DNA of 64,000 nucleotides from Streptomyces sp. NBC_01210 (GTDB lineage Bacteria > Actinomycetota > Actinomycetes > Streptomycetales > Streptomycetaceae): assembly GCF_036010325.1 (NCBI RefSeq), contig NZ_CP108549.1, forward strand, positions 3,038,001 through 3,102,000, given 5' to 3'. Shown here in pieces: positions 533-14,993 of this stretch (the stretch's first letter is position 1; each line of letters opens with the position of its first letter). Under the pieces are notes generated by a model. That model did not search any database. It was not told the origin of the DNA and worked only from the letters and a program-made list of their open reading frames with translations. Made by a program: the position numbers and the translations under genes.

Positions 533-1456
533 CTACGCCGGAGTGAGTTCGCGCCGCTGAGGGGCGTACGCAGTGGTCACGGCCTCGTCGTAACGCTGCA
601 GCAGCAGCCGGGCCAGGGCCGGGTGCGCACCGAGCGGGGCGGCGGCGATCCATGGCGCGACGGCGGCGCTGCGGGTGGCGAAGAGGCCGGGGGACGCGAA
701 GTAGGAGGCGACGGCGATCCGGTGGCGGCCACGGGCGGTGAGCGCGCGCACGGCCGCCGGGACGGTGGGCGAGACGGCGGAGGCGTACGCGGGGACGACG
801 GGCACGCCGCCGAGGCGCTCGCTGAGCTGGTCGGCGGTGCGGCGGGCGTCGGCGACCGAGTCCGGGTCACGGGATCCGGCGGCGGCCAGGACGACTCCGG
901 CGCTGCGGCTGGTGCCGTCCTCGGGGCGCCAGCCCGCGTCGGCGAGACGGGAACAGAGCGCCTCGACGAGGAGGGGGTGCGGGCCGAGCGGGGCGGCTAT
1001 GCGTATGTCCGCGCCGGGGACGGCCGCGGCGGCCTGCGGCAGATCGTGCTTGACGTGGTAGCCGCGGCTCAGCATCAGCGGTACGAGGACGGCTCTGGCT
1101 CCGCTCAGCCCGTCGCGCACCTCGCGGGTTTCGCGGGTTTCGCCGCCGAGCGTGGCGAGCGTGGCGGAGAGCAGCGGCTCGTTCAGCTCGATGTGGCCGA
1201 GGCGGACGTCGAGCTCGGGACGCAGTTCGCGGACCCGGTCGAGGAGCGTGGTCACGGCGCGCAGGGCGCGCGGGTCGCGGCTGCCGTGGGCGACTGCGAC
1301 GAGGGTGGGCTGCCGGTCGGTCGGGGGCATGGGCCTGCGGGTTCCGTTCAGTGTGACGTGGCTGAGTTGGGTGCCGAGCTGGGCCGTGATGCGTGTAAGA
1401 AGCTGCGCGGTGGTGTCGAGGGGCAGAGACTCACGAACGTGTGCCGACTCCGTCAT
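533..1456 (-). CDS. Sirohydrochlorin chelatase-like protein (CbiX family)
   Basis: Predicted class II chelatase that inserts Fe2+ or Co2+ into sirohydrochlorin for siroheme or cobalamin. The 307 residues form two tandem CbiX half-domains: AHGSRDP at about 56-62 with GYHVKHD at 132-138 in the first, and a second GSRDPDS at 194-200. The first 45 residues are a non-conserved extension. ATG at 1456 is preceded by AGGA at good spacing, so it is preferred over the internal ATG at 1330. The siroheme-dependent nitrite reductase about 22 kb away is a plausible consumer of the product. Metal choice cannot be read from the sequence. It is transcribed away from the MoxR/vWA cassette. Confidence 0.88.
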   Translation of the reverse strand: MTESAHVRESLPLDTTAQLLTRITAQLGTQLSHVTLNGTRRPMPPTDRQPTLVAVAHGSRDPRALRAVTTLLDRVRELRPELDVRLGHIELNEPLLSATLATLGGETRETREVRDGLSGARAVLVPLMLSRGYHVKHDLPQAAAAVPGADIRIAAPLGPHPLLVEALCSRLADAGWRPEDGTSRSAGVVLAAAGSRDPDSVADARRTADQLSERLGGVPVVPAYASAVSPTVPAAVRALTARGRHRIAVASYFASPGLFATRSAAVAPWIAAAPLGAHPALARLLLQRYDEAVTTAYAPQRRELTPA

Positions 1457-1606: not shown

Positions 1607-2482
1607 ATGGGCTGGATCGAGACGGAGAGCGGCGGATACGCCGTCACGTTGGACGGCACCAAGGTGCTGTGCAGGAACGCTGCCGGGCGCGCGTTGAAGC
1701 AGGTGCCGGCGAAGCTGCGGGACGACGCCGAGGTCGTGCGGCTGCGGCAGCTGGCCGAGTGGCTGGAGCGGCACGAACGGGACTGCCGCGAGCAGGTGGA
1801 CACCTGGCTGGTGCGCTCGCTGCCGGTGCCGGTGGGGCTGCTGGCCCGGGTGTGGCCGGACACGGCATGGCAGGCGGCGCTGCGCGATCTTGTGGTGGCG
1901 CCGGTGGCGGCGGACGGGACGGCCGATATGGAGCGCGCCGGGTTTCTGCGGGACGCGGATGCGCAGAAGGGCGCGGGGATCGTCGATCTGGACGGGGACT
2001 CGGTGCGGCTGGACTGCGAGACCGTGCTGATCCCGCATCCCGTGCTCCTCGAAGACCTCGACAATCTGCGGGAGTTCGCGGTGGAGCTGGGGGTCGAGCA
2101 GGGCGTGGAGCAGTTGTTCCGCGAGGTGTGGCGGCGGCCCGAGGATGTGCGGGGCCAGGACTGGCAGGCGTACGCCAACGGAAAGTTCGAGCAGCTGCGG
2201 CACGCCACGACGCGCGCTGTCTCACTCGGCTACCGGGTGCGCGGCGGCCAGGCGGTCTGCCCTCTGGTGGAGGACGGCCGGCCGCTCGAGGCGGCGTACT
2301 GGCTGGGGGACGACTATCCGGATCTGGAGGCGCTGACCGGCCCGCTGGAGTGGCGGGACAAGGACGGCCGTCGGCTGCCGCTCGCCGAGGTGGGGCCGGT
2401 CGCCTGGTCGGAGGGCGAGCGGATGGCCGCGTTGGTGTACGCGGGCCGGGTGGCCGCGGGTGACGAGGAGGGGCTGCTGTGA
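1607..2482 (+). CDS. DUF4132 domain protein, first gene of the MoxR/vWA cassette
   Basis: A 291-residue protein of unknown biochemical function. It resembles the C-terminal DUF4132 module of E. coli YehI and MolR: a central LPVPVGLLARVWPDTAWQ segment (about 71-88) and, later, HPVLL followed by a GVEQGVEQLFREVWRRP-like stretch, the part of the family that reads roughly as QPFxQLFRExY. No catalytic motif, signal peptide or membrane segment is visible, so it should be cytoplasmic. ATG at 1607 has GGGAGG 9 nt upstream. Its stop overlaps the next start in a GTGA tetranucleotide, which implies translational coupling. The 150-nt gap before it, shared with the divergent cbiX-like gene, should hold the cassette promoter, but I see no convincing -35/-10 pair. 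Confidence 0.75.
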   Translation: MGWIETESGGYAVTLDGTKVLCRNAAGRALKQVPAKLRDDAEVVRLRQLAEWLERHERDCREQVDTWLVRSLPVPVGLLARVWPDTAWQAALRDLVVAPVAADGTADMERAGFLRDADAQKGAGIVDLDGDSVRLDCETVLIPHPVLLEDLDNLREFAVELGVEQGVEQLFREVWRRPEDVRGQDWQAYANGKFEQLRHATTRAVSLGYRVRGGQAVCPLVEDGRPLEAAYWLGDDYPDLEALTGPLEWRDKDGRRLPLAEVGPVAWSEGERMAALVYAGRVAAGDEEGLL

Positions 2483-5400
2483 GCGGCGCGGGAAGCACGG
2501 CGGGGGGAACGGTGAACGGACTGCTGGAGGCCGGGGCGGTGCTGCCGCTCGGCGCGGGCGACGGTGCGGGACCTGGCGACGAGGGACAGATACAGGCTCA
2601 GGGCGACAAGCTGACGGCGCGGGCGTACGGACATCCGGCGCTCGATGGGCGCACGGTGGTGCGGCTGGTCCCGGAGGCGATCGGCCCCGCCGAGGATCTC
2701 GCCCTGGAGTATCTGGGCTTCACCCCCTCCGGGTCGGCGCCGGTGGGACGGGTGAAGCGGCAGTCGCTCGGCTTCCCCGCCTGGGCACTGGTCCACGACC
2801 CGGAGAACGGGCATCACGCGCTCGCCGTGGTCAAGGAGATGGAACGGCTCGCGCGGCTCGTCACGACCAAGCCGGGGCTCGCCAAGGAAGGCTTCGACGA
2901 GATCGGTGCGCGGCTGGACCGTTCCGTACCGCACTTCCTGCCGACCTTCTACGAGCAGGCGGCGCGGCTGTTCCTGGCCGCCGAGTCGCGGCAGCACGCC
3001 GCGGTGTACTTCGGCAAGGCGCGGGCGGCGGAGCAGCGGCACGCGCTGGCGGTCGACGAGGAGCGGCTGCGGGAGGTCTTCCTGGAGTTCGCGGGTGCGG
3101 GCGCACTGAGCGGCAAGGCGCTGCGGGAGTACGCCAAGGGGCTGGCGGCCCGGCTGGCGTCACCGGAGGCGTACGCGCAGTTCAGGACGGTGTCGCTGGA
3201 GCGGTGCGCGGCCGGACTCACTCCGTACGCGGGCATGGTGGAGGATCTGCGGCGCCTCGCGAAGGGCGCGGGTCTGGACGCGGCCGCCGAGGAGCGTGCG
3301 CTGATCGCGGAGATCATCCACACCGGGGCGATGAACCGCGCGGCGGCGAGCTTCTGGAAGTCGGCGCTGCCGGCCCTGGCTCATATCGCAGCCGAGGATA
3401 TGGCGGTACGGGAGCGGCTGCTGGCGCTGCTGCCGGCGGTGGGCGGCGACAGCCCGGCGGAGTTCGACGAGGCCTGGCTGTCGCTGCTGGACCGGTGCGG
3501 GGCCATCGGGCTGCTGCTGGACGGGACGGTTCCGGCGGCCGAGTGGCTGTCGTCCTGGGCCAGGCACCGGCAGCGGGGCTGGCGCGGCATGAATCGGCTC
3601 GCGGCCGAACTGACCCTGGTGGAGCGGCTGGCGGACCGGCTGGTCGCGGACGGCACACCACTGCAACTGCTGCGCGGCGGCGGCTGGCGCACCACCGTCG
3701 ACCTGGATCTCCTCGACACGTGTCTGGCCCTGGGGGTGCCGGTCGAGGCACCGTCGGACGCGATGGAGAACCTGGAGCTGGGGCCGTGGCTGTCCGACGA
3801 GGGTGAGGGGCGCAGGGATCTGACGGCGCTGGCCGCCGATTCACGGTTTGCGCCGCTGCTGCGCGGCGGCGTGGAGCGGGCGGCCGGCACCAACGAGGCG
3901 TCGGCGCAGCTGAACCGGATCGCGGACCATCCGGCGCTGCGTGCGGTGCTCGCGGGCTGGCTGGCCGACCGGGCCGAGGATCTGTCGCAGCCGCTCGGAC
4001 TGCCGGGCCTTGACGGCCTGTTGGGCCGGCTGACGAAGTTCTCCGCACCGTCCGTGCTGGCGGCGGCGCCCGAGGCAGTGGACCGTATCGCCGCCGTCTC
4101 CCCGGCCGGTGCGCTGGCCCGCACACTGCGCGCGGGCATTCTCGACGAGCTGGGCTGGCCCGCGCTGGAGGAGGCGCTTCCGGAGCTCGGCAAGGTCAAT
4201 CCCATGGCCTCCGGGCAGCGGCACGGCTATCTGGCCGACGAGTGGTACCGGCTCGCGGACGCCTGGCCCGCGCTGGTCGTCCGGGTCGGGACGCGCGTCG
4301 CGGCGGTGGGGCCGAACGGCGTGCTGGACCGGCAGACACTCACGCTGCCGGTGCGGTCGTCGTCCTCCTGGGATGTGCCGACGGTCCGTTATGTGGGCGG
4401 CCAGTGGCTGGTCGCCAACGGCCATGGCGCCGACCGCCGGGCGCGCTGGTCGGGACGGCCCGCCGAGGTGTTCAAGCCGGACGGCGACCTGAGGGACCAC
4501 TGGACCTCGTTCCAGAATCCGACGCTGGCACTGCCCGACGGCAGCCGCACCTTCGGCGGGCGGCCCGTCCACGCGGGCGACACCTCGTTCGCGGCGGAGC
4601 AGCGGCCGGTCGCCTCGGACGGCATCTCGATGTGGGTGCTGCACCAGGGCCAGTGGTGGGACTACGACCCCGAGTCGGCCCGCAGGGGCCGGATCTCGCT
4701 GCCGGCCTTCTTCGACTCGGCGCTCGCCGAAGGAGCGGGCAGCGCGCACGGACAGCGCAGCCTGCTGGAGAGGGCCTGCCGCCTGCTGCCCGTACAACCG
4801 GGCCTGGAGTCCTCGCCGTTCGGCAGCAAGGACGGGCTGCTCGGCTGGTGGGTGCGGTACGACGCGCAGGCGCGGACGCTCACCGCCTGCTCGGTGGACG
4901 GCAGCCGCAGCCCGGCGGTGGAGCTCCCGCGAGGCAGCAGCATCGAGCACCTCACGCACGGCATTCCGCTACCGCCGCTGCGGCTGCCGGGCGGGGCCGT
5001 ACTGCATCCGCGCGAGTCTCGCGGCTTCGACGGGCAGCTCGCCCTGTACGACTCCGAGGGCATCTGCCTGGCCGTGTTCAAGGAGGGCGACCGGGGCGGG
5101 GCACACGCGGCGGGTACTCCGCTGGTTCCGCCGATCACCTACTGGCATGCGCTGCGGCCGCGCGACGAGCGGGGTTCGGCGGCTCTGCGGGCGGTGACGG
5201 AGGCGGACGCGAAGGCACTTCTGAGCGCTGTCGCGGACGGTGCGAAGCCGGACGCGGCCGTACGGAAACTGCTGCCGGAGGTCACCCATCCCGGGCTGGT
5301 GGCAGGCGTGGCCGGTCTGGTCGAGGAGGCGGTACGGCACGGCAAGCGCATCGGTGTGTTCGCCGAGCGGGCGGCCAAAGAGCGGCAGAAGCCGGACGCG

Positions 5401-7470
5401 GCCGAGGCGCAGGAGCAGCGGGTACGGCATGCGCTCGACGGCGCGCTGCGCGAAGCATTCGACGGCTTCATGGGCTCCCGGCACTTCTATGGCCACCACC
5501 GCTACTGGGAGCGGGACACCACCACGTGCGTGAACCAACTCCGGCTGCTGCAACGGGTGCTGACACCTGAGACCGGTGCCGGGAAGGTGGCGCTGACGGG
5601 CACCGGCGTGGGGTGGCTGACGCTTCCGGGGCCCGGTATGTCGGCGCTCGCCGTACGTGCGGCCTCCCCGACGACGAGTGAGACGGACCGCGCGGCGCTG
5701 CTGGAGTTCCTCGACGCGGTGCTGGAGGTGAGGGCGGACGGCGACTCGGTACTCGTCGATCCGCGCGGTCGGCTGCGGATCGTGCAGCTGCGGATCGCAC
5801 GGCCCGCCCACAGCGATCAACTGCTGGGTGAGGTCCGGCACTCGGGGGCGCGGCGGCTGCTGATCGTCGCCTGTCAGCGGATCGAGGACAAGTACGCGTA
5901 CTGGAACGGCATCGAGTACGACCCGGCCGGGGCCTTCGGCGCCTGGGACGACTTCACGCTCGCCGAGTCGGATGTGCTGGGCGCGGCCGACGATCCGTTG
6001 CGGGCGGCCTCGGTGCGCCGGATGGTGGACGGGATACGGGAACACGGCCCGCTGCAGTACCGGCCGGAGCAGGCACAGGAGTTCGCCGAAGAGGTCGGCG
6101 TCGGGGCGGTCACGGGTGCGCTGCTGCTGCTCGGGCTGCCGGGCGTCACCACGTACGGCCGGCACGGCCTGCTCTCCGCCGAGTATCTGGCGCCGCTGGG
6201 AGCGAAGAGCGCCGAGGCGCAGGCCGGGCGAGGAGTGCTGGGCTCGCTGTCACCCGCGGAACGGCAGCTGTACACCGGCCTGTTGGTGCCGGCCGAGGCG
6301 CAGCGGGTGGCGGAGCTGTGGACAAAGGGGTTCGATCTGGAGCCGCTCACCCGGGCCTGGCTGGCGGCGCGCGGCAAGCGACGCGTCACGCCCGCCTGGC
6401 TGATCACACGGGCGGTGGCCGAAATCGGTACAGGACCGATCCTCGACCACGTGCTCAACCCCGAGGCGAAGACCGAGCTCACCGGCCGTACCGAGCAGCG
6501 CCACGGCGACGACGGGCTGGTCCCGGCGGAGCCGGAGAAGCTGCTCACCGGATCCACCCTGAGTACTTATGTGGCCATGTTGCGCTGGCTCGCGTACCGG
6601 CTGCCGTACGGCGATCCGCTGCGCGCGGTCCTGCCGGTCACGCTGCGGATGGTGCGTGAGCGGCTCGCCGACCCCGGGCTGCTGCTGGACCTCGGCGTGG
6701 ACTGGGACACGGAGGGCAGCGCGACCTCGGTGCGGCTGCGGGAGGCGTATGGACTGCCGCTCAAGCGCGACAGCGCGAAGGACGGGCTGGTCGAGGTCTC
6801 GGACGCGGTGGTGCTTGCGCCGATGCGGTACCGCTCGGAGTGGGATTCGGTGTGGGTGCGGTCGGCGGCCCTCGTGGACGGCGCGAGCGGAGGTCCGGAT
6901 CATCCGGCGCTGAAGCAGCTAGCCGCGACGGCGGGCGAGAAGCCGGCGCTGAAGGCGCTGCGTACGGTGCTGAGCGAGGAGTTCACGGCGCTGGTCACGG
7001 CCGACGGACAGGCGGGGGCGGCGCAGTATCCGCCGCACAGCGTGCCGGAGCTGGTGACAGCGGCGGCGGAGCGGTTCGGCCTCTCCGAGGACGCGGCCGC
7101 GCTCTATCTGATGCTGCTGGCCCTGCCCGATCCGACCGACCGCAATCAGGCGGAGTGGACCGGCTGGAAGCCTGCCCGGCTCAAGAAGGCGCGGGCCGAA
7201 CTGGCCGCCACCGACCTGGCGGTGGAGGCAAAGCGGGCGCGCGCCGGGCGTTCGCTCTTCCTGCCCGGCGGCTGGCTGGAGCAGAGGACACCGCGGCTGC
7301 CGGCGGAGAGCTGGAAGACGGCGATCGTGCCGTGGGATCTGTACGGCTTCGTGGTGCCGGACCGTCCGGTGGCGCAGCTGTACGCGGCGGCATGGCGGCG
7401 GGTCGTGGAAGGCGATGCGCCGGGGTTCGAGGAGTTCAGGGGACGTAGCGGCAGGGGAGGTTCGCGATGA
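2479..7470 (+). CDS. Very large cytoplasmic protein of unknown function in the MoxR/vWA cassette
   Basis: A 1663-residue protein with no signal peptide, no clear membrane segment and no motif I recognise. The first 550 residues or so look helical and Leu/Ala-rich, like repeat scaffolds. The middle (about 600-900) is richer in Trp, Gly and aromatic residues and may be beta-rich. The last 600 residues are again helical, ending with a WDLYGFVVPD segment. In homologous neighbourhoods a large DUF4132/MolR-like protein occupies this slot, so it may be a distant or split partner of the preceding DUF4132 gene. The GTG start overlaps the upstream stop by 4 nt; a second in-frame GTG at 2512 is possible. 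Its stop overlaps the MoxR start in ATGA, so stoichiometric production with the ATPase is likely. Confidence 0.8.
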   Translation: MSGAGSTAGGTVNGLLEAGAVLPLGAGDGAGPGDEGQIQAQGDKLTARAYGHPALDGRTVVRLVPEAIGPAEDLALEYLGFTPSGSAPVGRVKRQSLGFPAWALVHDPENGHHALAVVKEMERLARLVTTKPGLAKEGFDEIGARLDRSVPHFLPTFYEQAARLFLAAESRQHAAVYFGKARAAEQRHALAVDEERLREVFLEFAGAGALSGKALREYAKGLAARLASPEAYAQFRTVSLERCAAGLTPYAGMVEDLRRLAKGAGLDAAAEERALIAEIIHTGAMNRAAASFWKSALPALAHIAAEDMAVRERLLALLPAVGGDSPAEFDEAWLSLLDRCGAIGLLLDGTVPAAEWLSSWARHRQRGWRGMNRLAAELTLVERLADRLVADGTPLQLLRGGGWRTTVDLDLLDTCLALGVPVEAPSDAMENLELGPWLSDEGEGRRDLTALAADSRFAPLLRGGVERAAGTNEASAQLNRIADHPALRAVLAGWLADRAEDLSQPLGLPGLDGLLGRLTKFSAPSVLAAAPEAVDRIAAVSPAGALARTLRAGILDELGWPALEEALPELGKVNPMASGQRHGYLADEWYRLADAWPALVVRVGTRVAAVGPNGVLDRQTLTLPVRSSSSWDVPTVRYVGGQWLVANGHGADRRARWSGRPAEVFKPDGDLRDHWTSFQNPTLALPDGSRTFGGRPVHAGDTSFAAEQRPVASDGISMWVLHQGQWWDYDPESARRGRISLPAFFDSALAEGAGSAHGQRSLLERACRLLPVQPGLESSPFGSKDGLLGWWVRYDAQARTLTACSVDGSRSPAVELPRGSSIEHLTHGIPLPPLRLPGGAVLHPRESRGFDGQLALYDSEGICLAVFKEGDRGGAHAAGTPLVPPITYWHALRPRDERGSAALRAVTEADAKALLSAVADGAKPDAAVRKLLPEVTHPGLVAGVAGLVEEAVRHGKRIGVFAERAAKERQKPDAAEAQEQRVRHALDGALREAFDGFMGSRHFYGHHRYWERDTTTCVNQLRLLQRVLTPETGAGKVALTGTGVGWLTLPGPGMSALAVRAASPTTSETDRAALLEFLDAVLEVRADGDSVLVDPRGRLRIVQLRIARPAHSDQLLGEVRHSGARRLLIVACQRIEDKYAYWNGIEYDPAGAFGAWDDFTLAESDVLGAADDPLRAASVRRMVDGIREHGPLQYRPEQAQEFAEEVGVGAVTGALLLLGLPGVTTYGRHGLLSAEYLAPLGAKSAEAQAGRGVLGSLSPAERQLYTGLLVPAEAQRVAELWTKGFDLEPLTRAWLAARGKRRVTPAWLITRAVAEIGTGPILDHVLNPEAKTELTGRTEQRHGDDGLVPAEPEKLLTGSTLSTYVAMLRWLAYRLPYGDPLRAVLPVTLRMVRERLADPGLLLDLGVDWDTEGSATSVRLREAYGLPLKRDSAKDGLVEVSDAVVLAPMRYRSEWDSVWVRSAALVDGASGGPDHPALKQLAATAGEKPALKALRTVLSEEFTALVTADGQAGAAQYPPHSVPELVTAAAERFGLSEDAAALYLMLLALPDPTDRNQAEWTGWKPARLKKARAELAATDLAVEAKRARAGRSLFLPGGWLEQRTPRLPAESWKTAIVPWDLYGFVVPDRPVAQLYAAAWRRVVEGDAPGFEEFRGRSGRGGSR

Positions 7471-8684
7471 GCGCGGGCGCGGGGAACAGGGTCGCGAAGA
7501 GCAAGGTCGCGAAGAGCAGCGTCGCGGGGGGCGCGGCGCGGCAGGTGGAGCTGCCGGAGGACCGGTACGGCGAGGAGCTGAGCTTCCTCGCTGCGTACGA
7601 CGGCGGGCCGAGGCCGCCGGGATGGCGGATGACGCCACGCGCGGCGGTGCTGTTCGTCTGCGGTTCCGACGGCGAGCCGCTGCGGACGGCGGAGGGGCAG
7701 CAGCTGGTCGTTTCACGGAAGTTCGTGGGCGACCGGGCACTGGTGGAGCGGTGTGTGGTGACACTCGCGGGCGAGCGGGGGCTGCTGCTCGTCGGCGAGC
7801 CGGGCACGGCCAAGTCGATGCTCTCCGAACTGCTGGCCGCAGCCGTGTGCGGCAGCAGCACCCTCACCGTGCAGGGAACGGCCGGCACCACCGAGGACCA
7901 GCTGCGGTACGGCTGGAACTACGCGATGCTCCTCGCCAAGGGGCCGAGCCGCGAGGCCCTGGTGCCCTCTCCGGTGCTGACCGCGATGACGCGGGGCGCG
8001 GTCGCCCGGATCGAGGAGGTCACCCGCTGTCTGCCCGAGGTGCAGGACGCACTGGTCTCGCTGCTCTCCGAGCGCCGGATGTCCGTGCCGGAACTGACAG
8101 GACTCGCGGGCGGGGACGGCACCGAGGGGACGGAGGGAGCGGACGGGACCGTGCACGCCGTGCCCGGCTTCACGCTGATCGCCACGGCCAACCTCCGTGA
8201 CAAGGGCGTCTCGGAGATGTCCGCCGCGCTGAAGCGCCGCTTCAACTTCGAGGAGGTCGGCCCGATCGGCGACCTCGACGCCGAGACGGAGCTGGTGCGC
8301 GGGCAGGCCACGGCGGCGCTGGCGCGCTCCGGCGCACCGTTCGGGGTGGACGAGACGGTGCTGGAGGCGCTGGTGACGGCCTTCCGGGATCTGCGGACCG
8401 GGCGCAGCGCGGAGGGCTGGGAGGTCGAGCGGCCGTCAACGGTCATGTCGACGGCGGAGGCGGTCCATGTGGCCACGTCGATGGGGCTGGGTGCGGTGTA
8501 TCTGAGCGACGGGCGGGATGTCGTACGCACACTGCCGGGGCATCTCCTCGGCACGGTGCGCAAGGACGACCCGGCCGACCACGCACGGCTGTTGGGGTAC
8601 TGGGACGGGCCCGTGCGGCGGCGGGCCGAGGGCGGCGCACCGCTGTGGCGGACGCTGTGGGAGCTGCGCGATGAGCTCACCTGA
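7467..8684 (+). CDS. MoxR-type AAA+ ATPase (YehL-like)
   Basis: AAA+ ATPase of the MoxR group, which works as a chaperone or remodelling motor together with a vWA adaptor. The 405-residue protein has Walker A GEPGTAKS at 110-117, a Walker B-like ARIEEVTR near 180-187 where EE stands in place of the usual DE, sensor 1 FTLIATAN at 235-242 and an arginine-finger region SAALKRRFN at 252-260. An Ala/Lys/Ser-rich leader of about 25 residues precedes the fold, and a Gly/Glu-rich insertion sits at 213-230. ATG at 7467 has GGGGAGG at ideal spacing and overlaps the previous stop by 4 nt. The cassette also encodes a vWA protein, the standard partner. Substrates are unknown. Confidence 0.9.
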   Translation: MSAGAGNRVAKSKVAKSSVAGGAARQVELPEDRYGEELSFLAAYDGGPRPPGWRMTPRAAVLFVCGSDGEPLRTAEGQQLVVSRKFVGDRALVERCVVTLAGERGLLLVGEPGTAKSMLSELLAAAVCGSSTLTVQGTAGTTEDQLRYGWNYAMLLAKGPSREALVPSPVLTAMTRGAVARIEEVTRCLPEVQDALVSLLSERRMSVPELTGLAGGDGTEGTEGADGTVHAVPGFTLIATANLRDKGVSEMSAALKRRFNFEEVGPIGDLDAETELVRGQATAALARSGAPFGVDETVLEALVTAFRDLRTGRSAEGWEVERPSTVMSTAEAVHVATSMGLGAVYLSDGRDVVRTLPGHLLGTVRKDDPADHARLLGYWDGPVRRRAEGGAPLWRTLWELRDELT

Positions 8685-11100
8685 GCAGGCCCCTGAGCAA
8701 GCTCCAGAGGAAGCGCTGGCTGAACTTGCCGGGTGCCGTGACCCGTATCTGATCGGGGTACGGCACCACTCCCCCGCGCTCGCGGCAGCCGTGCCCGCAC
8801 TGCTGGCTCAGGCGGCGCCGGAGGTGCTGTTCATCGAGCTGCCGGAGGAGTTCGCGCCGTGGCTGGAGCACCTTGCCGACCCGGCGACGGTGCCGCCGGT
8901 CGCGCTGGCGGGCAGCGGGGGCGAAGGTGGCGCCGGTCCGGTGTTTCTGCCGTTCGCGGAGTTCTCGCCGGAGCTGGCGGCGATCCGCTGGGCGCGGGAG
9001 GCGGGTGTGGAGGTGGTGCCGTTCGATCTCCCGCTGGCGGCGCGAGGTCCTGCCGACGAGGAGGCGCGGGACGCAGGTCCCGGTGCGGGCTCGCTCACGG
9101 CGGCGCTGCGTGCGAGAGCCGGTGGCCGGCCGGGCGGCGACCTGTGGGACCGGCTGGTCGAGGCGACCGCTCCCGGCTCCGGGCCCGAAGCGCTGCGGCG
9201 CGCCGCACTGCTGGTGGGGTGGGCACTGCGGACGGACGCGGGTGCGGGTGCGGTGGATCCGTACGACCTGCGGCGCGAGGCGAACATGCGGCGCCGGCTG
9301 GCGGATCCCGAGCATGCTGGGCGGCGCGCGGCCGCGGTGATCGGCGCGTTTCACGCGCCGGCGCTGACGGCGGGCTCCGGTGCCGAGAGCGGTCTGCCCC
9401 AGTCGCCTCGGCCGGGTGGCGCCGAGGTCGTCACCTCGCTGGTGCCGTACTCGTACGCGCTGCTCGACGAGCGTTCCGGCTATCCCGCAGGCATCCGGGA
9501 CCCGGAGTGGCAGCGCGGTGTTTTCCAGGCGGCGGGCGATCCCGGCCTGCTGGACGACCTGCTGACCTCCACCGCCGTACGGATATGTGCGGCTGTACGG
9601 GATACCGGTCACCCGAGCGGGCCCGCCGATGCCCGCGAAGTGGTCCGCGTCGCCCGGGACTTGGCGTCGCTGCGCGGGCTGCCGGCGGCCGGGCGGGGCG
9701 AGCTGGCGGAGGCTGCGCAGACCGTGCTCACGCAGGGCCGGCTGCTGGGGCGGGGCCGCGTGGTGGCCGCCGCCATGGAGCGGGTGCTGGTCGGGCGACG
9801 GCATGGGCGGCTGGCGCCGGGGACACCGCGTTCCGGGCTCGGGCCCGCCGTCGAGACGCTGCTCGGCGAGCTGAAGCTGCCCGTGCCGGACGCGCCCGAG
9901 CGGCGCGAGCTGCGCCTGGACATGCTCCGCTCCGAGCTCGACCGGCGCCGCGAGATCACTCTGCGGCGGCTCGCGGTCTGCCGCGTCCCGTACGGCGAGG
10001 AGTCCGCGGTCGCGGGAGTCGGCGACGCCGCCGCGCTGACCACACGCTGGGCCGTCGCCTGGTCCCCGTCGACGGCCGCGATGCTCGATGTGGCGGGCCT
10101 GCACGGGGTGACCATCGAGCAGGCCGCCGCCGGAGTGCTGCGGCAGCGGCGCGCCGATGAGCGGCGGCAGGGCGGGCCGACCGCCGCCGAGGTCGTCGAC
10201 GGGCTGGCGGAGGCCGCGCGGTGCGGCCTGCCGGACCTGGCGGCGGAGCGGCTGGCGGAGTCCGCCGAACTGCTCCCGGCCACCGGAGCGCTGCCCGAAC
10301 TGCTCGCCGGAATGGCCCTGTTGGACCGGATCAGATCCGGCCATCTGCCGGGGCTCGACGCCGGATGGGAGCGGGACGCCGTCGACGCGGCGTACGAGGA
10401 ACTGGCCGCGGCGGGGGTCCGCGCGCTCGACGGCCTCGCGGGCTCCACCGCACCGGACGACGCCCGCGCCCTCGTCGCGCTCGCCTGCCGGGCCGCCGGG
10501 GTGGGCGGCGGCCTGCGCCTCGCCGACGCGCTGGCCCGGCTGGATTCGGGGGCGACACCGCTGATGCGGGGCGCGGCGGGCGCGGCACGGGTGCTGCAGG
10601 GTCAGCGGGACCCGGGAGAGTTCGGGGAGCGCCTGGCCTCCCGCGCGGATGGCGCGACCTCGCCGGAACTGCGCGCGGGGCTGGCGGAGTTTCTGCGCGG
10701 GACACTGCTCGCGGCGGGCCCGCTGCTGGAGACGGGCAAGGCGCTGGACCCGCTGCTGGAGCGGGTGGAGTCGCTGCCCGACCGGGAGTTCCTGAACCGG
10801 CTGCCCGCACTGCGGGCGGGCTTCGACACGCTCGCGCCCGCGGCCCGTTCCCGGCTGCTGTCGGTGGTGGAGGACCGCACGGGTACGGCCGCCGGCACCC
10901 TCCAGGGCCCGGTGACAGACCCGGCGACGCTGGCCCTGCTGGCGACGGCGGACCTGGCGGGCAGGGAGGCACTGGCGGCAAGAGGCCTGACCCGGGAACC
11001 CCAGGTCCGGGGGGGGCCGGTGCGAGGGGACTGCGGGACGCGGCACGTTGGATGCGCCGGTTCCGGAACATCAGAGCCTTGGTGCTCCGGTGGACGGTGA
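8671..11100 (+). CDS. DUF5682 family protein (YehM-like)
   Basis: An 809-residue protein of the DUF5682 family, found beside MoxR and vWA genes and of unknown activity. The N-terminus carries the family-typical GVRHHSPA (about 29-36) followed by a strand ending FIELPEE; further on is VIGAFHAPAL (about 219-228), matching the conserved G-x-W/F-H-x-P-A-L element. These His-containing motifs could form an active site, but no enzyme activity is established. ATG at 8671 lies inside the MoxR gene (14-nt overlap) with GGGAG upstream. The last 40 residues, rich in Gly, Cys and Arg, start at a run of eight G (11009-11016) and look unlike the rest; see the findings. Confidence 0.85.
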   Translation: MSSPEQAPEQAPEEALAELAGCRDPYLIGVRHHSPALAAAVPALLAQAAPEVLFIELPEEFAPWLEHLADPATVPPVALAGSGGEGGAGPVFLPFAEFSPELAAIRWAREAGVEVVPFDLPLAARGPADEEARDAGPGAGSLTAALRARAGGRPGGDLWDRLVEATAPGSGPEALRRAALLVGWALRTDAGAGAVDPYDLRREANMRRRLADPEHAGRRAAAVIGAFHAPALTAGSGAESGLPQSPRPGGAEVVTSLVPYSYALLDERSGYPAGIRDPEWQRGVFQAAGDPGLLDDLLTSTAVRICAAVRDTGHPSGPADAREVVRVARDLASLRGLPAAGRGELAEAAQTVLTQGRLLGRGRVVAAAMERVLVGRRHGRLAPGTPRSGLGPAVETLLGELKLPVPDAPERRELRLDMLRSELDRRREITLRRLAVCRVPYGEESAVAGVGDAAALTTRWAVAWSPSTAAMLDVAGLHGVTIEQAAAGVLRQRRADERRQGGPTAAEVVDGLAEAARCGLPDLAAERLAESAELLPATGALPELLAGMALLDRIRSGHLPGLDAGWERDAVDAAYEELAAAGVRALDGLAGSTAPDDARALVALACRAAGVGGGLRLADALARLDSGATPLMRGAAGAARVLQGQRDPGEFGERLASRADGATSPELRAGLAEFLRGTLLAAGPLLETGKALDPLLERVESLPDREFLNRLPALRAGFDTLAPAARSRLLSVVEDRTGTAAGTLQGPVTDPATLALLATADLAGREALAARGLTREPQVRGGPVRGDCGTRHVGCAGSGTSEPWCSGGR

Positions 11101-12292
11101 CCCGGGGGCCGGATCGGACGGTGACCCGGGGGCCGGATCGGACGGTCCTGAGGAAAACGGTGCGGGCGTCGGGCTCGTGGCCGGGGAGCGGTGGCGGTTG
11201 CTTCTCGGGCGGGGGCGGGAGTTGACGGGCAACGCCGCGCGAGTTGCCGCCGCGCTCGACGAGTTGTACGGGCACGGGCGGGGCGAGGGCTCCCGTGGCG
11301 AGGACGGTGACGGTCTCGGGGGCGGCGGCGGGATCGAGGCTCCGTACCCCGATGTACGGGCCTGGTCGGACGAGCTCGCCGCGCTCTTCGGGCCCGGCGT
11401 CCGCGAAGAGGTGCTCGCCGCTGCCGCCGACGCCGGCCGGCTCGATGCCGCACTCGAGCTCGACCCCGCCTCGGCCCGCCCTTCCATGGAGCTGCTGCGC
11501 ACCGTCCTGTCCTACGCGGGCGGTCTCCCCGAGCAGCAGCTCGCCCGTCTGCGGCCCCTGGTGGCCCGGCTCGTACGGGAGTTGACCGAGGCCCTCGCCA
11601 ACCGGCTGCGCCCCGCGCTCACCGGCCTGGCCCACCCGCGCCCCACCCGTCGCCCCGGCGGCCCGCTCGACCTCCCGCGCACCCTGCGCGCGAACCTGGC
11701 GACCGCCCGCCGCGACCCGGACACCGGCACGGTCACGGTCCTCCCGGAGCGGCCCGTCTTCCGCACCCGGGCCCGCAGGTCGGCCGACTGGCGGCTGGTC
11801 CTCGTCGTCGACGTGTCGGGCTCGATGGAGGCCTCGACGATCTGGTCCGCGCTCACCGCGTCCGTACTGGCCGGAGTCCCCGCCCTGAGCACGCATTTCA
11901 TCGCCTTCTCCACCGAGGTGCTCGACCTCACCGACCATGTGGACGATCCGCTGAGCCTGCTCCTGGAGGTACGCGTCGGCGGTGGCACGAGCATCGCGCG
12001 CGGCCTGCGCCACGCGCGCGAGCTGGTGACGGTGCCGTCACGCACGCTCGTCGTCCTGGTGAGCGACTTCGAGGAGGGCGGGCCGGTCGGCCCCCTGCTG
12101 TCGGAGGTACGGACGCTGGTCGACGCGGGCTGCCATGTCCTGGGCTGCGCCTCGCTGGACGACGAGGGCAGGCCCCGCTACTCGGCGGGCGTGGCGGGCC
12201 GGCTGGTGGCTGCGGGCATGCCGGTCGCGGCACTCAGTCCCCTGGAGCTGGCCCGCTGGGTCGGCGAGCGCGTAGGAGGTACGCACCGGTGA
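11048..12292 (+). CDS. vWA-domain protein (MIDAS-containing, YehP-like)
   Basis: Cytoplasmic von Willebrand A protein, the expected adaptor of the MoxR ATPase. The 414 residues comprise a variable acidic leader, a helical region from about 38 to 200 (beginning near GERWRLLLG), and a C-terminal vWA fold. The metal-ion-dependent adhesion site is complete: DVSGS at 255-259, a later GGGTS, and VSDFEEG. The first possible start is a TTG at 11048, 53 nt inside the DUF5682 gene; a GTG at 11090 is an alternative, and neither has a strong ribosome site, so the N-terminus is uncertain. Its stop overlaps the SWIM gene start in GTGA. A 24-bp tandem repeat lies in the leader. Confidence 0.85.
   Translation: MDAPVPEHQSLGAPVDGDPGAGSDGDPGAGSDGPEENGAGVGLVAGERWRLLLGRGRELTGNAARVAAALDELYGHGRGEGSRGEDGDGLGGGGGIEAPYPDVRAWSDELAALFGPGVREEVLAAAADAGRLDAALELDPASARPSMELLRTVLSYAGGLPEQQLARLRPLVARLVRELTEALANRLRPALTGLAHPRPTRRPGGPLDLPRTLRANLATARRDPDTGTVTVLPERPVFRTRARRSADWRLVLVVDVSGSMEASTIWSALTASVLAGVPALSTHFIAFSTEVLDLTDHVDDPLSLLLEVRVGGGTSIARGLRHARELVTVPSRTLVVLVSDFEEGGPVGPLLSEVRTLVDAGCHVLGCASLDDEGRPRYSAGVAGRLVAAGMPVAALSPLELARWVGERVGGTHR
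11096..11143 (+). repeat. 24-bp perfect tandem duplication across the DUF5682 stop
   Basis: Two adjacent identical 24-bp copies, 11096-11119 and 11120-11143, each reading GGTGACCC then GGGGGCCGG then ATCGGAC. The first copy contains the TGA stop of the DUF5682 gene. In the vWA frame each copy encodes GDPGAGSD, so the duplication lengthens the leader by eight residues without shifting the frame. Confidence 0.9.
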
Positions 12293-14208
12293 CCACAACA
12301 CCCTCTATGGGACTGCCTTCAGGACCCCGGGGACTGCCTCCGGCGAGCGCCGAGGTGGCCGCCGGGGCTCTCGACCTGCTCCCGGCCCGGCTGCGCAAGC
12401 GCGTCGACGGCGCTGTGGCAAAGGTGCCCGGCTGGCCGGTGGAGGCCACACCGGACGGAGTCCGCGTCCGGGTGGACGAGGACACCGCGGTGACCTTGAA
12501 GGTCACGAACGGGATCGTGGCGCGGGCGGACGACGCGGTATGCGGCTGTCTGCTGGCCCCGGCCTGCCTGCATCGCGCGGCGGTCCTGTCACACGCGCCA
12601 CTCGCGGAGGACACGGCGCCACCCGGGGCCCCGGACGCGGCACCATCGAAGACCCCGGAGGCGGAAGCCGCGGCGCCCACGGGCAGCACCATCGCCCCCG
12701 CCTCCGCCCCCGCCGGCACCAGAACCAGCACCAGCACCAGCACCAGCACCAGCACCAGTCTCGGCACCACTCGGTCGACCGCCCTCCACACCCTCCGCGC
12801 CGCCGCAACAGCGGTTCTCGTCACGGGAGTTACGGGCTCCGGCGCCGTTCACCGCGCCGAGCTGCTGCATGCCGCGCACTCCGCGCGGCTCGCCGGGCTC
12901 CGGCTGCACTCCGCCGCCGCGGTACGGATCGCACGCCGACTGGGCGAGGCGCGCTCCGAGGATCCGGCGTTCCGGCTGCCCGAGCTTTCCCGCGAGCTCG
13001 CGGAGCTGCTCGATCTCGTACAGCGGCCGGCCGACGCCGTCACCCCCGCGCGCCGCACCTACCAGCCGGCCAAACCCCTGCGCCTGTACGGCCTGTTCAC
13101 CGAACCGGTCGTCACCGCGTCCGGCTATGCGGGCGCGACCACGTACGCCGTCACGCCGGACGGCACCCTCCGCACGGTCTCGGACGTGGCGCCCGGCGGC
13201 CCGGAGCGGGCGGTCCAGGCGGCGGGCTCTGCGGTGCCGGGCGGCTGTGCGCTGCCGTTGCGGGCGTGGGGCGACGGCGGCGGGGTGATCCTGACCGGCC
13301 CGACCGTCTCACCGGACGGCCGGATCGGCGGCGGCGCCCGGCTCCGTTCCGTACGAGCTGCGGGCGCGCAATGGCACGAGTCGCCGCTCGACGCGCTGTG
13401 GCAGCGGCCGCCCGCGGCTCAACTCGCCGCCGCACTCGACTGGCTGGCGGAACCGGCCGACGACCGCACGGCGGGCGGCGATCTGCTCTTCCTCACTGGG
13501 ACGGTCTCCGGCGGCGGGTTCCGCGTCGCCGGCGGCCCGGCGCTGCAGCTGCTCGCCCCGGACGAGCGCCCGGAACTGCCGTACGCGGAGAATCTGCGTC
13601 TGCTCGCCTCGCGCCCCGGACTCGCGCTGCGGCTGATCGCCCGAGCCGTTCCCGACCGGCCGGGCGGCGTCCATGCCCTCGCCGCTGCCTGGACGGGCCA
13701 CGACGGCGAGAGCGTCCGCGCGGACCTGGGCCTGCGGCGGCTGAACCGTTCCCACATACCGGCACATATACCGGCGCCTGTACGGGCACAGACCGATCCA
13801 CTGCACCTCGTTGCCGCCGCGCCGCCCGCGCTGCCGGTGGAGTTGGATCTGCTGCGCCGCGCGGTGGACCGTACGGTCGCGGGCGGCCGCGCCGTCACCG
13901 CCGCATCGGCCGACGGCGAACTCCCGCGCCGCCTGCGCGCGGTGGGCCTCGCCACGGGCGCGGACTGCGCCCTGTCCCTGGCCGAAACGGCAGCGGACCG
14001 TCGCCACGACGCGCTGGGCCGACTGCTGCCCGCCGACCCGGACGCCTTCGCGGCAGCCTGGCTCGCGGCCGCGGTCTACACCTCGGCGGCGGCCAGGTCG
14101 CTGCTGTCGGCCGCATGGTCGGCGACGGGCCCGGACCACGACACGAGGGCGATCTCCGGCACCGTGGACCGAACCGTTCCGCCCCGATCCGCGTCTGACC
14201 AGGCGTGA
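12289..14208 (+). CDS. SWIM zinc-finger family protein (YehQ-like)
   Basis: A 639-residue protein with an N-terminal SWIM-type zinc finger: C85-x-C87-x5-C93-x-H95, matching C-x-C-x(n)-C-x-H. SWIM fingers bind nucleic acid or protein partners. A low-complexity Pro/Ala/Ser/Thr linker (about 105-165), including a run of alternating Thr-Ser from a hexanucleotide repeat, joins the finger to a long C-terminal region without recognisable catalytic motifs. GTG at 12289 is preceded by AGGAGG at 8 nt and overlaps the vWA stop by 4 nt. It closes the coupled series DUF4132, large protein, MoxR, DUF5682, vWA, SWIM, the same set as E. coli yehI/L/M/P/Q. It overlaps the following SanA-like gene by 4 nt. Confidence 0.85.
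   Translation: MTTTPSMGLPSGPRGLPPASAEVAAGALDLLPARLRKRVDGAVAKVPGWPVEATPDGVRVRVDEDTAVTLKVTNGIVARADDAVCGCLLAPACLHRAAVLSHAPLAEDTAPPGAPDAAPSKTPEAEAAAPTGSTIAPASAPAGTRTSTSTSTSTSTSLGTTRSTALHTLRAAATAVLVTGVTGSGAVHRAELLHAAHSARLAGLRLHSAAAVRIARRLGEARSEDPAFRLPELSRELAELLDLVQRPADAVTPARRTYQPAKPLRLYGLFTEPVVTASGYAGATTYAVTPDGTLRTVSDVAPGGPERAVQAAGSAVPGGCALPLRAWGDGGGVILTGPTVSPDGRIGGGARLRSVRAAGAQWHESPLDALWQRPPAAQLAAALDWLAEPADDRTAGGDLLFLTGTVSGGGFRVAGGPALQLLAPDERPELPYAENLRLLASRPGLALRLIARAVPDRPGGVHALAAAWTGHDGESVRADLGLRRLNRSHIPAHIPAPVRAQTDPLHLVAAAPPALPVELDLLRRAVDRTVAGGRAVTAASADGELPRRLRAVGLATGADCALSLAETAADRRHDALGRLLPADPDAFAAAWLAAAVYTSAAARSLLSAAWSATGPDHDTRAISGTVDRTVPPRSASDQA
12724..12758 (+). repeat. (ACCAGC)n hexanucleotide repeat in the SWIM gene
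   Basis: Five perfect ACCAGC units plus a near-perfect sixth encode alternating Thr-Ser in the linker behind the zinc finger. The unit is a multiple of three, so length changes would alter linker length without frameshift. Confidence 0.85.
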
Positions 14209-14993
14209 AGGCATCCCGCACATCGAAGGCATCGCAGGCGCCCAAGACGTCGAAAGCGCAGAAAGCACAGAAAGCAGCCAAGGCGTCGAAGCCGTCCAAG
14301 GCATCAGGACTGAAGCTGCTGCGACTCCCGAAGCTGCCGCGCGCCCGGCGCACCCAGCGACGGATCGTGCAGACGGTCATGCTCGCGTGCGTGTTCGCGC
14401 TCGCGCCCGCGACCTGGATGCATGCCGTCGCCGACAGCCGGGTCCGCACCGTCGCCGAGGTGCCCGCGCAGGATGTCGCCGTCGTCTTCGGAGCCGGGCT
14501 GTGGAAGGGCCGGCCCACGCCGTACCTCGCGCACCGGCTCGACGCCGCCGCCGAGTTGTACCGGGCGGGCAAGGTCAAGGTGGTGCTGGTCACCGGCGAC
14601 AACAGCAGGGTCGAGTACGACGAGCCGGATGCCATGCGGACGTATCTCACCGCCCGCGGAGTACCGGGTGGGCGGATCGTCAGCGACTACGCCGGCTTCG
14701 ACACCTGGGACTCGTGCGTCCGCGCCAAGAAGATCTTCGGCGTGGAACGGGCGGTCCTGGTGACGCAGGGCTTCCACATCCGGCGGGCCGTCGCGCTCTG
14801 CCAGGCGGCCGGGGTCGAGTCGTACGGTGTCGGGGTCGCCGAGCCCCATGACGCGACCTGGTACTACGGCGGGACGCGGGAGATGTTCGCCGCCGGCAAG
14901 GCGGCGCTGGACGCCGCGCTCACGCCCGATCCGCAATTCCTCGGCGCCAAGGAGCGCGGTGTGAAGGAAGCACTGGCCGCAGCGGCAGGGTGA
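14205..14993 (+). CDS. SanA/YdcF-like membrane-anchored protein (DUF218)
   Basis: A 262-residue protein of the SanA/YdcF (DUF218) fold, linked in other bacteria to envelope integrity. The first 45 residues are a very basic Lys/Ser/Ala tract, followed by one hydrophobic segment (about 54-72) and then the conserved domain: DVAVVFGAGLWKGRPT, KVVLVTGDNS, a PGGRIVSDYAGFDTWDSC segment and VTQGFHIRRA. Most of it should sit outside the membrane after a single anchor. The GTG start at 14205 overlaps the SWIM gene stop in GTGA, so it is co-translated with the cassette; membership in the system is inferred from position only. The basic leader comes from imperfect repeats of a Lys/Ala/Ser unit. Confidence 0.82.
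   Translation: MKASRTSKASQAPKTSKAQKAQKAAKASKPSKASGLKLLRLPKLPRARRTQRRIVQTVMLACVFALAPATWMHAVADSRVRTVAEVPAQDVAVVFGAGLWKGRPTPYLAHRLDAAAELYRAGKVKVVLVTGDNSRVEYDEPDAMRTYLTARGVPGGRIVSDYAGFDTWDSCVRAKKIFGVERAVLVTQGFHIRRAVALCQAAGVESYGVGVAEPHDATWYYGGTREMFAAGKAALDAALTPDPQFLGAKERGVKEALAAAAG

Follow-up and report, generated by a model that had tools for sequence, protein, structure and literature searches.

Organization of the cassette

The stretch analysed here, hereafter the window, comprises 64,000 nucleotides (nt) of contig NZ_CP108549.1 of Streptomyces sp. NBC_01210 (positions 3,038,001 to 3,102,000), i.e. 3.04-3.10 Mb of a 9.2-Mb high-GC genome. It holds a cassette of six plus-strand open reading frames (ORFs) that span 1607-14208 and have a coding-type codon composition, with high GC at third positions. 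Loci with this gene content (short DUF4132, giant, MoxR, DUF5682-vWA and SWIM, where vWA is von Willebrand factor A) are called type A below. The cassette genes are:

1607..2482, plus strand: short DUF4132 protein of 291 amino acids (aa), first cassette gene (Pfam PF13569, E 2.2e-28)
2479..7470, plus strand: giant protein of 1663 aa, without known family, shared by type A relatives
7467..8684, plus strand: MoxR AAA+ ATPase, YehL type by similarity, 405 aa (AAA_5, E 5.1e-39)
8671..11100, plus strand: DUF5682 protein (Pfam PF18934, E 6.9e-187), its C-terminal part predicted to be helical-repeat
11048..12292, plus strand: CoxE-like vWA protein of 414 aa (VWA_CoxE PF05762, E 1.2e-66), with metal ion-dependent adhesion site (MIDAS) DVSGSM
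12289..14208, plus strand: SWIM-type zinc-motif protein of 639 aa (C85-x-C87-x5-C93-x-H95)

A first-pass annotation, made from the letters of the window, had listed these six ORFs with junction overlaps of 4, 4, 14, 53 and 4 nt in gene order, and both ORFs and overlaps are confirmed; its DUF4132, MoxR, DUF5682 and vWA domains are recovered by Pfam and its SWIM protein by the CxC-x5-CxH motif. The 14-nt overlap follows from the choice of the ATG at 8671 for DUF5682, whose mechanical ORF opens at 8518. Five consecutive overlaps stand above background, since a crude gene caller run over the whole window found 28 same-strand neighbour pairs of which 10 overlap (five by 4 nt), and these counts include the cassette's own pairs. 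A promoter and terminator scan was uninformative.

The same annotation had concluded that the six proteins are made as one unit. The overlaps are real, but the 53-nt junction differs in kind from ordinary coupling: it splits what relatives encode as one ORF. A common ORF for DUF5682 and vWA is present at all 32 comparable type A loci (31 distinct, L045 and L119 being the same locus); at the 33rd (L049) the contig ends before vWA. The nearest relative, L037, has a single chain that matches the window DUF5682 up to residue 774 and the vWA protein from residue 34, which places the split in the interdomain linker. Past approximately 10993 the DUF5682 frame no longer matches this relative, and the following feature lies just beyond:

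11009..11016, plus strand: run of eight G in the interdomain linker, inside the stretch 10991-11097 in which both frames are open

A 24-base tandem duplication at 11092-11139 comes after the G run. The TTG start of the vWA gene is nominal, the bases upstream showing no clear ribosome-binding site by eye. Assembly error, slippage and a true two-gene split are all possible causes here.

Predicted fold and active site of DUF5682

The N-terminal domain of DUF5682 (approximately residues 20-240) is predicted by AlphaFold2, together with structural matches, to take the TIKI/EreA/ChaN fold. This predicted hydrolase fold is the most telling feature of the cassette, and the first-pass annotation had missed it. 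The predicted model has a central beta-sheet with flanking helices, as in Ere, ChaN and TraB structures, and the AlphaFold2 models of DUF5682 have predicted local distance difference test scores of 86.4 and 87.8. A whole-model Foldseek search was swamped by helical repeats below a Tetrahymena chain, so the domain was folded alone. A search of PDB sequences with the TraB profile did not list that chain, and its identity as a TraB-family subunit therefore rests on a figure legend.

Three residues stand out in alignment, all with codons that were checked:

8764..8766, plus strand: codon of His32 (GVRHH), the first of two conserved His in the predicted active site; His in 64/64 and 50/50 sequences
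8836..8838, plus strand: codon of Glu56, forming the predicted His-Glu pair with His32; Glu in 64/64
9352..9354, plus strand: codon of His228, second conserved His (GAFH); His in 64/64 and 50/50

Glu56 lies 24 residues past His32, a spacing kept in all 64 aligned sequences. We predict that His32, Glu56 and His228 are active-site residues, matching the His-Glu pair and second, GxxH, His of the TIKI/EreA/ChaN/TraB superfamily (Tiki, TraB, EreC, ChaN, HopBA1, RRSP), for which 25 of 28 TraB matches entered the comparison alignment (26 in a companion run). Pfam reports neither TraB_PrgY_gumN (PF01963) nor Erythro_esteras (PF05139) for the protein at E<=0.1, DUF5682 alone matching; it is thus predicted to be a separate family within the same superfamily. 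It stands apart from the other members by what its domain is attached to: a helical-repeat platform and, additionally in type A, the vWA adaptor. The putative hydrolase would most likely act as a peptidase or esterase. A search for publications on DUF5682 and DUF5691 found none, in a library of partial coverage.

A widespread core and an actinobacterial variant

A scan for DUF5682 with one genome per species gave at least 563 relatives; the best 80 were kept, so that close relatives are favoured, and these 80 loci were examined by six-frame profile searches. Two alignments took 46 of them and a third 62; L072 and L109 were excluded because the range matched contains an in-frame stop, and the rest by choice. 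Type A accounts for 23/80 loci, all actinobacteria by genus. The other 57 mostly have SWIM, DUF5691 (48/57), MoxR, DUF5682 and vWA, with a long DUF4132 nearby in 7/57; they include Bacteroidota, proteobacteria, Chloroflexota, cyanobacteria, planctomycetes, acidobacteria and actinobacteria.

Co-occurrence was counted in the 66 loci whose flanks extend for at least 4.5 kb upstream and 3.5 kb downstream. MoxR lies near DUF5682 in 64 of these, vWA in 65 and SWIM in 64. A vWA gene on the opposite strand was accepted up to 9 kb away (L059, L069), and in one case SWIM was scored from its motif only. Three Lentzea loci have vWA approximately 8 kb away on the opposite strand, two of them counted as present. 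By type the counts are:

MoxR: type A 17/19, others 47/47
vWA: type A 19/19, others 46/47
SWIM: type A 19/19, others 45/47
giant: type A 19/19, others 0/47
DUF5691: type A 0/19, others 43/47

Type A was further enlarged to 33 loci by adding ten (L117-L126) chosen for holding the giant; short DUF4132 and giant are present in 33/33, MoxR in 31 and SWIM in 32. The two type A loci without an adjacent MoxR, L047 and L056, have a close MoxR (78% identity) elsewhere in both genomes. Thus the widespread unit is the core (MoxR, DUF5682, vWA, SWIM) and not the six-gene set, and the form with DUF4132 plus giant is an actinobacterial variant. The first-pass idea of a conserved unit on a MoxR-vWA pair, co-occurring beyond close relatives, holds across phyla for this core, while all six genes together were found in actinobacteria only.

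One may ask whether the genes are merely co-transcribed and form no joint machine. In favour of this, MoxR is not adjacent in the two loci of 33 just named. We nevertheless regard this explanation as highly improbable, given that MoxR, vWA and SWIM are kept with DUF5682 across phyla, that DUF5682 and vWA form one ORF in type A, and that SWIM and DUF5691 form one ORF in five other loci (L070, L087, L091, L095, L116).

The window's own genome has two more MoxR-DUF5682-vWA copies. One, at 5.71 Mb, is accompanied by SWIM and DUF5691 (type B). The third copy, at 7.30 Mb (L010), has a longer vWA protein (561 aa), and neither a SWIM-motif nor a giant gene was called alongside.

The same core is held by Escherichia coli K-12, where the order is yehI (DUF4132), yehK, yehL, yehM, yehP, yehQ. 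The genes yehL-M-P-Q correspond to MoxR, DUF5682, vWA and SWIM in the window's order, and a DUF4132 gene lies upstream in both. The first-pass annotation had equated the window's set with yehI-L-M-P-Q by domain content. This stands for MoxR (46% identity to YehL), DUF5682 (28% to YehM) and vWA (38% to YehP); the SWIM protein has its motif in common with YehQ but gives no significant match, and neither the giant nor the short DUF4132 protein matches YehI significantly in pairwise comparison, even though Pfam DUF4132 is found in YehI as well as in the short protein. The architectures also differ: YehI is a single 1210-aa DUF4132 protein, against 291-aa DUF4132 and 1663-aa giant proteins in the window, and DUF5682 and vWA, one polypeptide in type A relatives, are separate in E. 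coli. Among the papers listed, a literature search found no study of function for the E. coli yeh set, nor any on YehL partner function. YehL was already named as a MoxR subfamily in 2014 (PMC3893208).

Motor, adaptor and variable components

The window MoxR aligns with YehL at 288 bits and with RavA, the other E. coli MoxR, at 24 bits, which by sequence puts it in the YehL subfamily. Its Walker A, ATAN and arginine motifs are intact. Motifs were counted on 60 of 79 clustered MoxR genes, and all 60 have Walker A GxPGT[AG]K[ST], TAN and the arginine pair, with EE at the position usually taken by the Walker B acidic pair. The Pfam bpMoxR model reaches 21.2 bits on the window proteins (cut-off 27). 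The vWA protein is CoxE-type by both the VWA_CoxE model and its MIDAS DxSxS, and D.SGSM is kept in 54/55 relatives. The VWA_CoxE match reaches residue 405 of 414 and leaves nothing C-terminal to vWA as an effector domain; in type A relatives the extra domain lies N-terminal to vWA.

Mean identity to the window is 72% for MoxR (31 loci), 70% for vWA (32), 55% for DUF5682 (33), 54% for DUF4132 (33), 40% for SWIM (32) and 39% for the giant (33). We read these figures as a conserved motor with divergent, putative recognition parts, and they fit the earlier suggestion of variable sensor parts. The SWIM motif CxC-x5-CxH is invariant in 11/11 aligned relatives, window included; the Pfam SWIM model gives no match to the window protein at E<=0.1. 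The SWIM_A and SWIM_B profiles were compared as possible homologues and rejected as such, only the zinc motif aligning, without significance.

Searches of Pfam, NCBIfam and PDB sequences returned no match to the giant within the limits applied, and among 25 giants searched against Pfam no family was found in more than two members. Two candidates were set aside: (i) kinship to YehI, DUF4132 or DUF5691, for which profile and PDB searches showed no similarity, and (ii) a strong AAA_5 match among the giants, which is consistent with member L039, where the ORF continues into MoxR. The ends of the giant are better kept (residues 1-320, 51%; 1501-1663, 60%) than its variable middle (36 and 32%). Residues 1521-1600 look winged-helix-like by eye. 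Distant giant relatives occur at L181-L184 and in the window's own genome near 0.465 Mb (L180), with lengths of 1555-2010 aa and one of 690 aa; no DUF4132, DUF5682 or MoxR gene was recognized in the surrounding stretch taken, bar a 14.5-bit MoxR match in L180.

Proposed mechanism

Taken together, we give about even weight to the reading that the cassette is a MoxR-vWA remodelling machine with a TIKI-type hydrolase as its client. A YehL-type MoxR hexamer would work through the CoxE-like vWA adaptor, as is established for other such pairs; the adaptor would be joined or coupled to DUF5682, with its predicted TIKI domain and helical-repeat platform; and ATP-driven remodelling would switch, load or release the hydrolase. 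SWIM, giant and DUF4132 (elsewhere DUF5691 or HEAT-DUF4132) may serve as rapidly evolving recognition or scaffold components that set the timing or the target of the hydrolase. With its predicted TIKI fold and its link to the vWA adaptor, DUF5682 would provide the system with a predicted active site and a motor client. If true, the MoxR-vWA theme would widen from cofactor insertion and VMAP-type conflict to a TIKI-type hydrolase.

More tentatively, the system could belong to an undescribed, widespread class of AAA+-gated hydrolase machine: a TIKI-fold peptidase on a vWA adaptor whose recognition modules are exchangeable (SWIM-DUF5691 at most of the sampled loci, DUF4132-giant-SWIM in the actinobacterial form), acting as a damage- or invader-triggered proteolytic switch; we hold this specific form possible, with less confidence than the general one.

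Genome placement, flanking genes and rival functions

Placement was compared in 11 genomes: the window's own, and ten congeneric ones selected because the giant is present in them. The type A cassette is placed differently in each: its flank genes have relatives beside the cassette in 0-1 of the ten others. The nearest type B flank genes mostly have relatives in 8-10 of the ten. Type A is therefore an accessory cassette in varied places, and type B is fixed in this genus. On one side of the window's cassette lies a CbiX-type chelatase gene (533-1456, minus strand, divergent from the cassette), and genes on this side have no counterpart at the ten other type A cassettes compared. A giant relative is present in 28/61 genomes. 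A phage-collection search returned one unannotated faecal record, and a plasmid search 34 records, some chromosome-sized.

This patchy distribution and variable placement, with fast-evolving recognition parts, would suit an anti-phage or conflict system in which giant and SWIM are sensors and DUF5682 the effector. Kaur et al. 2020 describe MoxR-vWA ternary systems with peptidases (PMC7159879), and these conflict systems are alike in having a MoxR-vWA core, extra components and some attached peptidases. They differ in that Pfam recognized no VMAP or iSTAND component among the window proteins, that the predicted hydrolase here is TIKI-type and N-terminal to vWA, and that the core occurs in many phyla and in part keeps one chromosomal position. 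The main text of PMC7159879 does not mention DUF5682, DUF4132, SWIM or Yeh.

Type A flanks were scanned for Pfam and PADLOC families (144 of 153 genes), type B flanks for PADLOC families (65 of 71 genes). At E<=1e-10, PADLOC found 35 families among the 144 type A flank genes and none among the 65 type B genes. Each of the 35 has at most 2/144 members, however, and the 25 shown consist largely of PD-T4-6 models with a single member. We do not take this contrast as a sign of a defence island; the type B control is weak, the same few genes being repeated. In Pfam, no family occurs in more than 5/144 type A flank genes (25 of 101 families shown), the commonest are general metabolic, regulatory and transport families, and the 25 shown include no mobile-element family. 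The seven window proteins in 1607-14990 match no defence-system model, the best PADLOC hit having E 0.029. Given that the core is also a fixed-place gene set in this genus and part of the chromosome of E. coli K-12, the conflict system that the first-pass annotation had offered as one option finds little backing here, and we consider it unlikely.

The other precedent for the motor is CoxD-CoxE and NorQ-NorD, which like the window combine MoxR with a CoxE-type vWA protein. By this analogy the cassette would be a cofactor-insertion chaperone, MoxR-vWA inserting or delivering metal or heme with DUF5682 as client or ChaN-like binder. In contrast to CoxDE and NorQD, no recurrent target metalloenzyme was seen near type A (the target could lie elsewhere), and hydrolase-fold, SWIM and giant or DUF5691 proteins are added. 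No metalloenzyme or cofactor family stands out in the Pfam counts just given. The chelatase gene is on the other strand, in flanks that are common to at most one of the ten other genomes, and the His-Glu pair and GxxH fit enzyme-type members of the superfamily. A cofactor chaperone thus seems rather unlikely.

For the remodelling machine with a hydrolase client, a stress or DNA-damage response is the most likely setting, by analogy. It is favoured over phage defence because DUF4132 and WGR proteins of Deinococcus radiodurans (DRA0166 and DR2173, respectively) rise after mitomycin C in an IrrE-dependent manner (PMC8533742). The earlier suggestion of a stress chaperone gains only indirect support from the same induction.

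At the downstream end of the cassette, a sixth overlap, of 4 nt, joins the SWIM gene to a DUF218/SanA-like ORF (14205-14993), which may share the cassette transcript. Among the 33 type A loci, a relative of this ORF was found only beside the nearest, L037.

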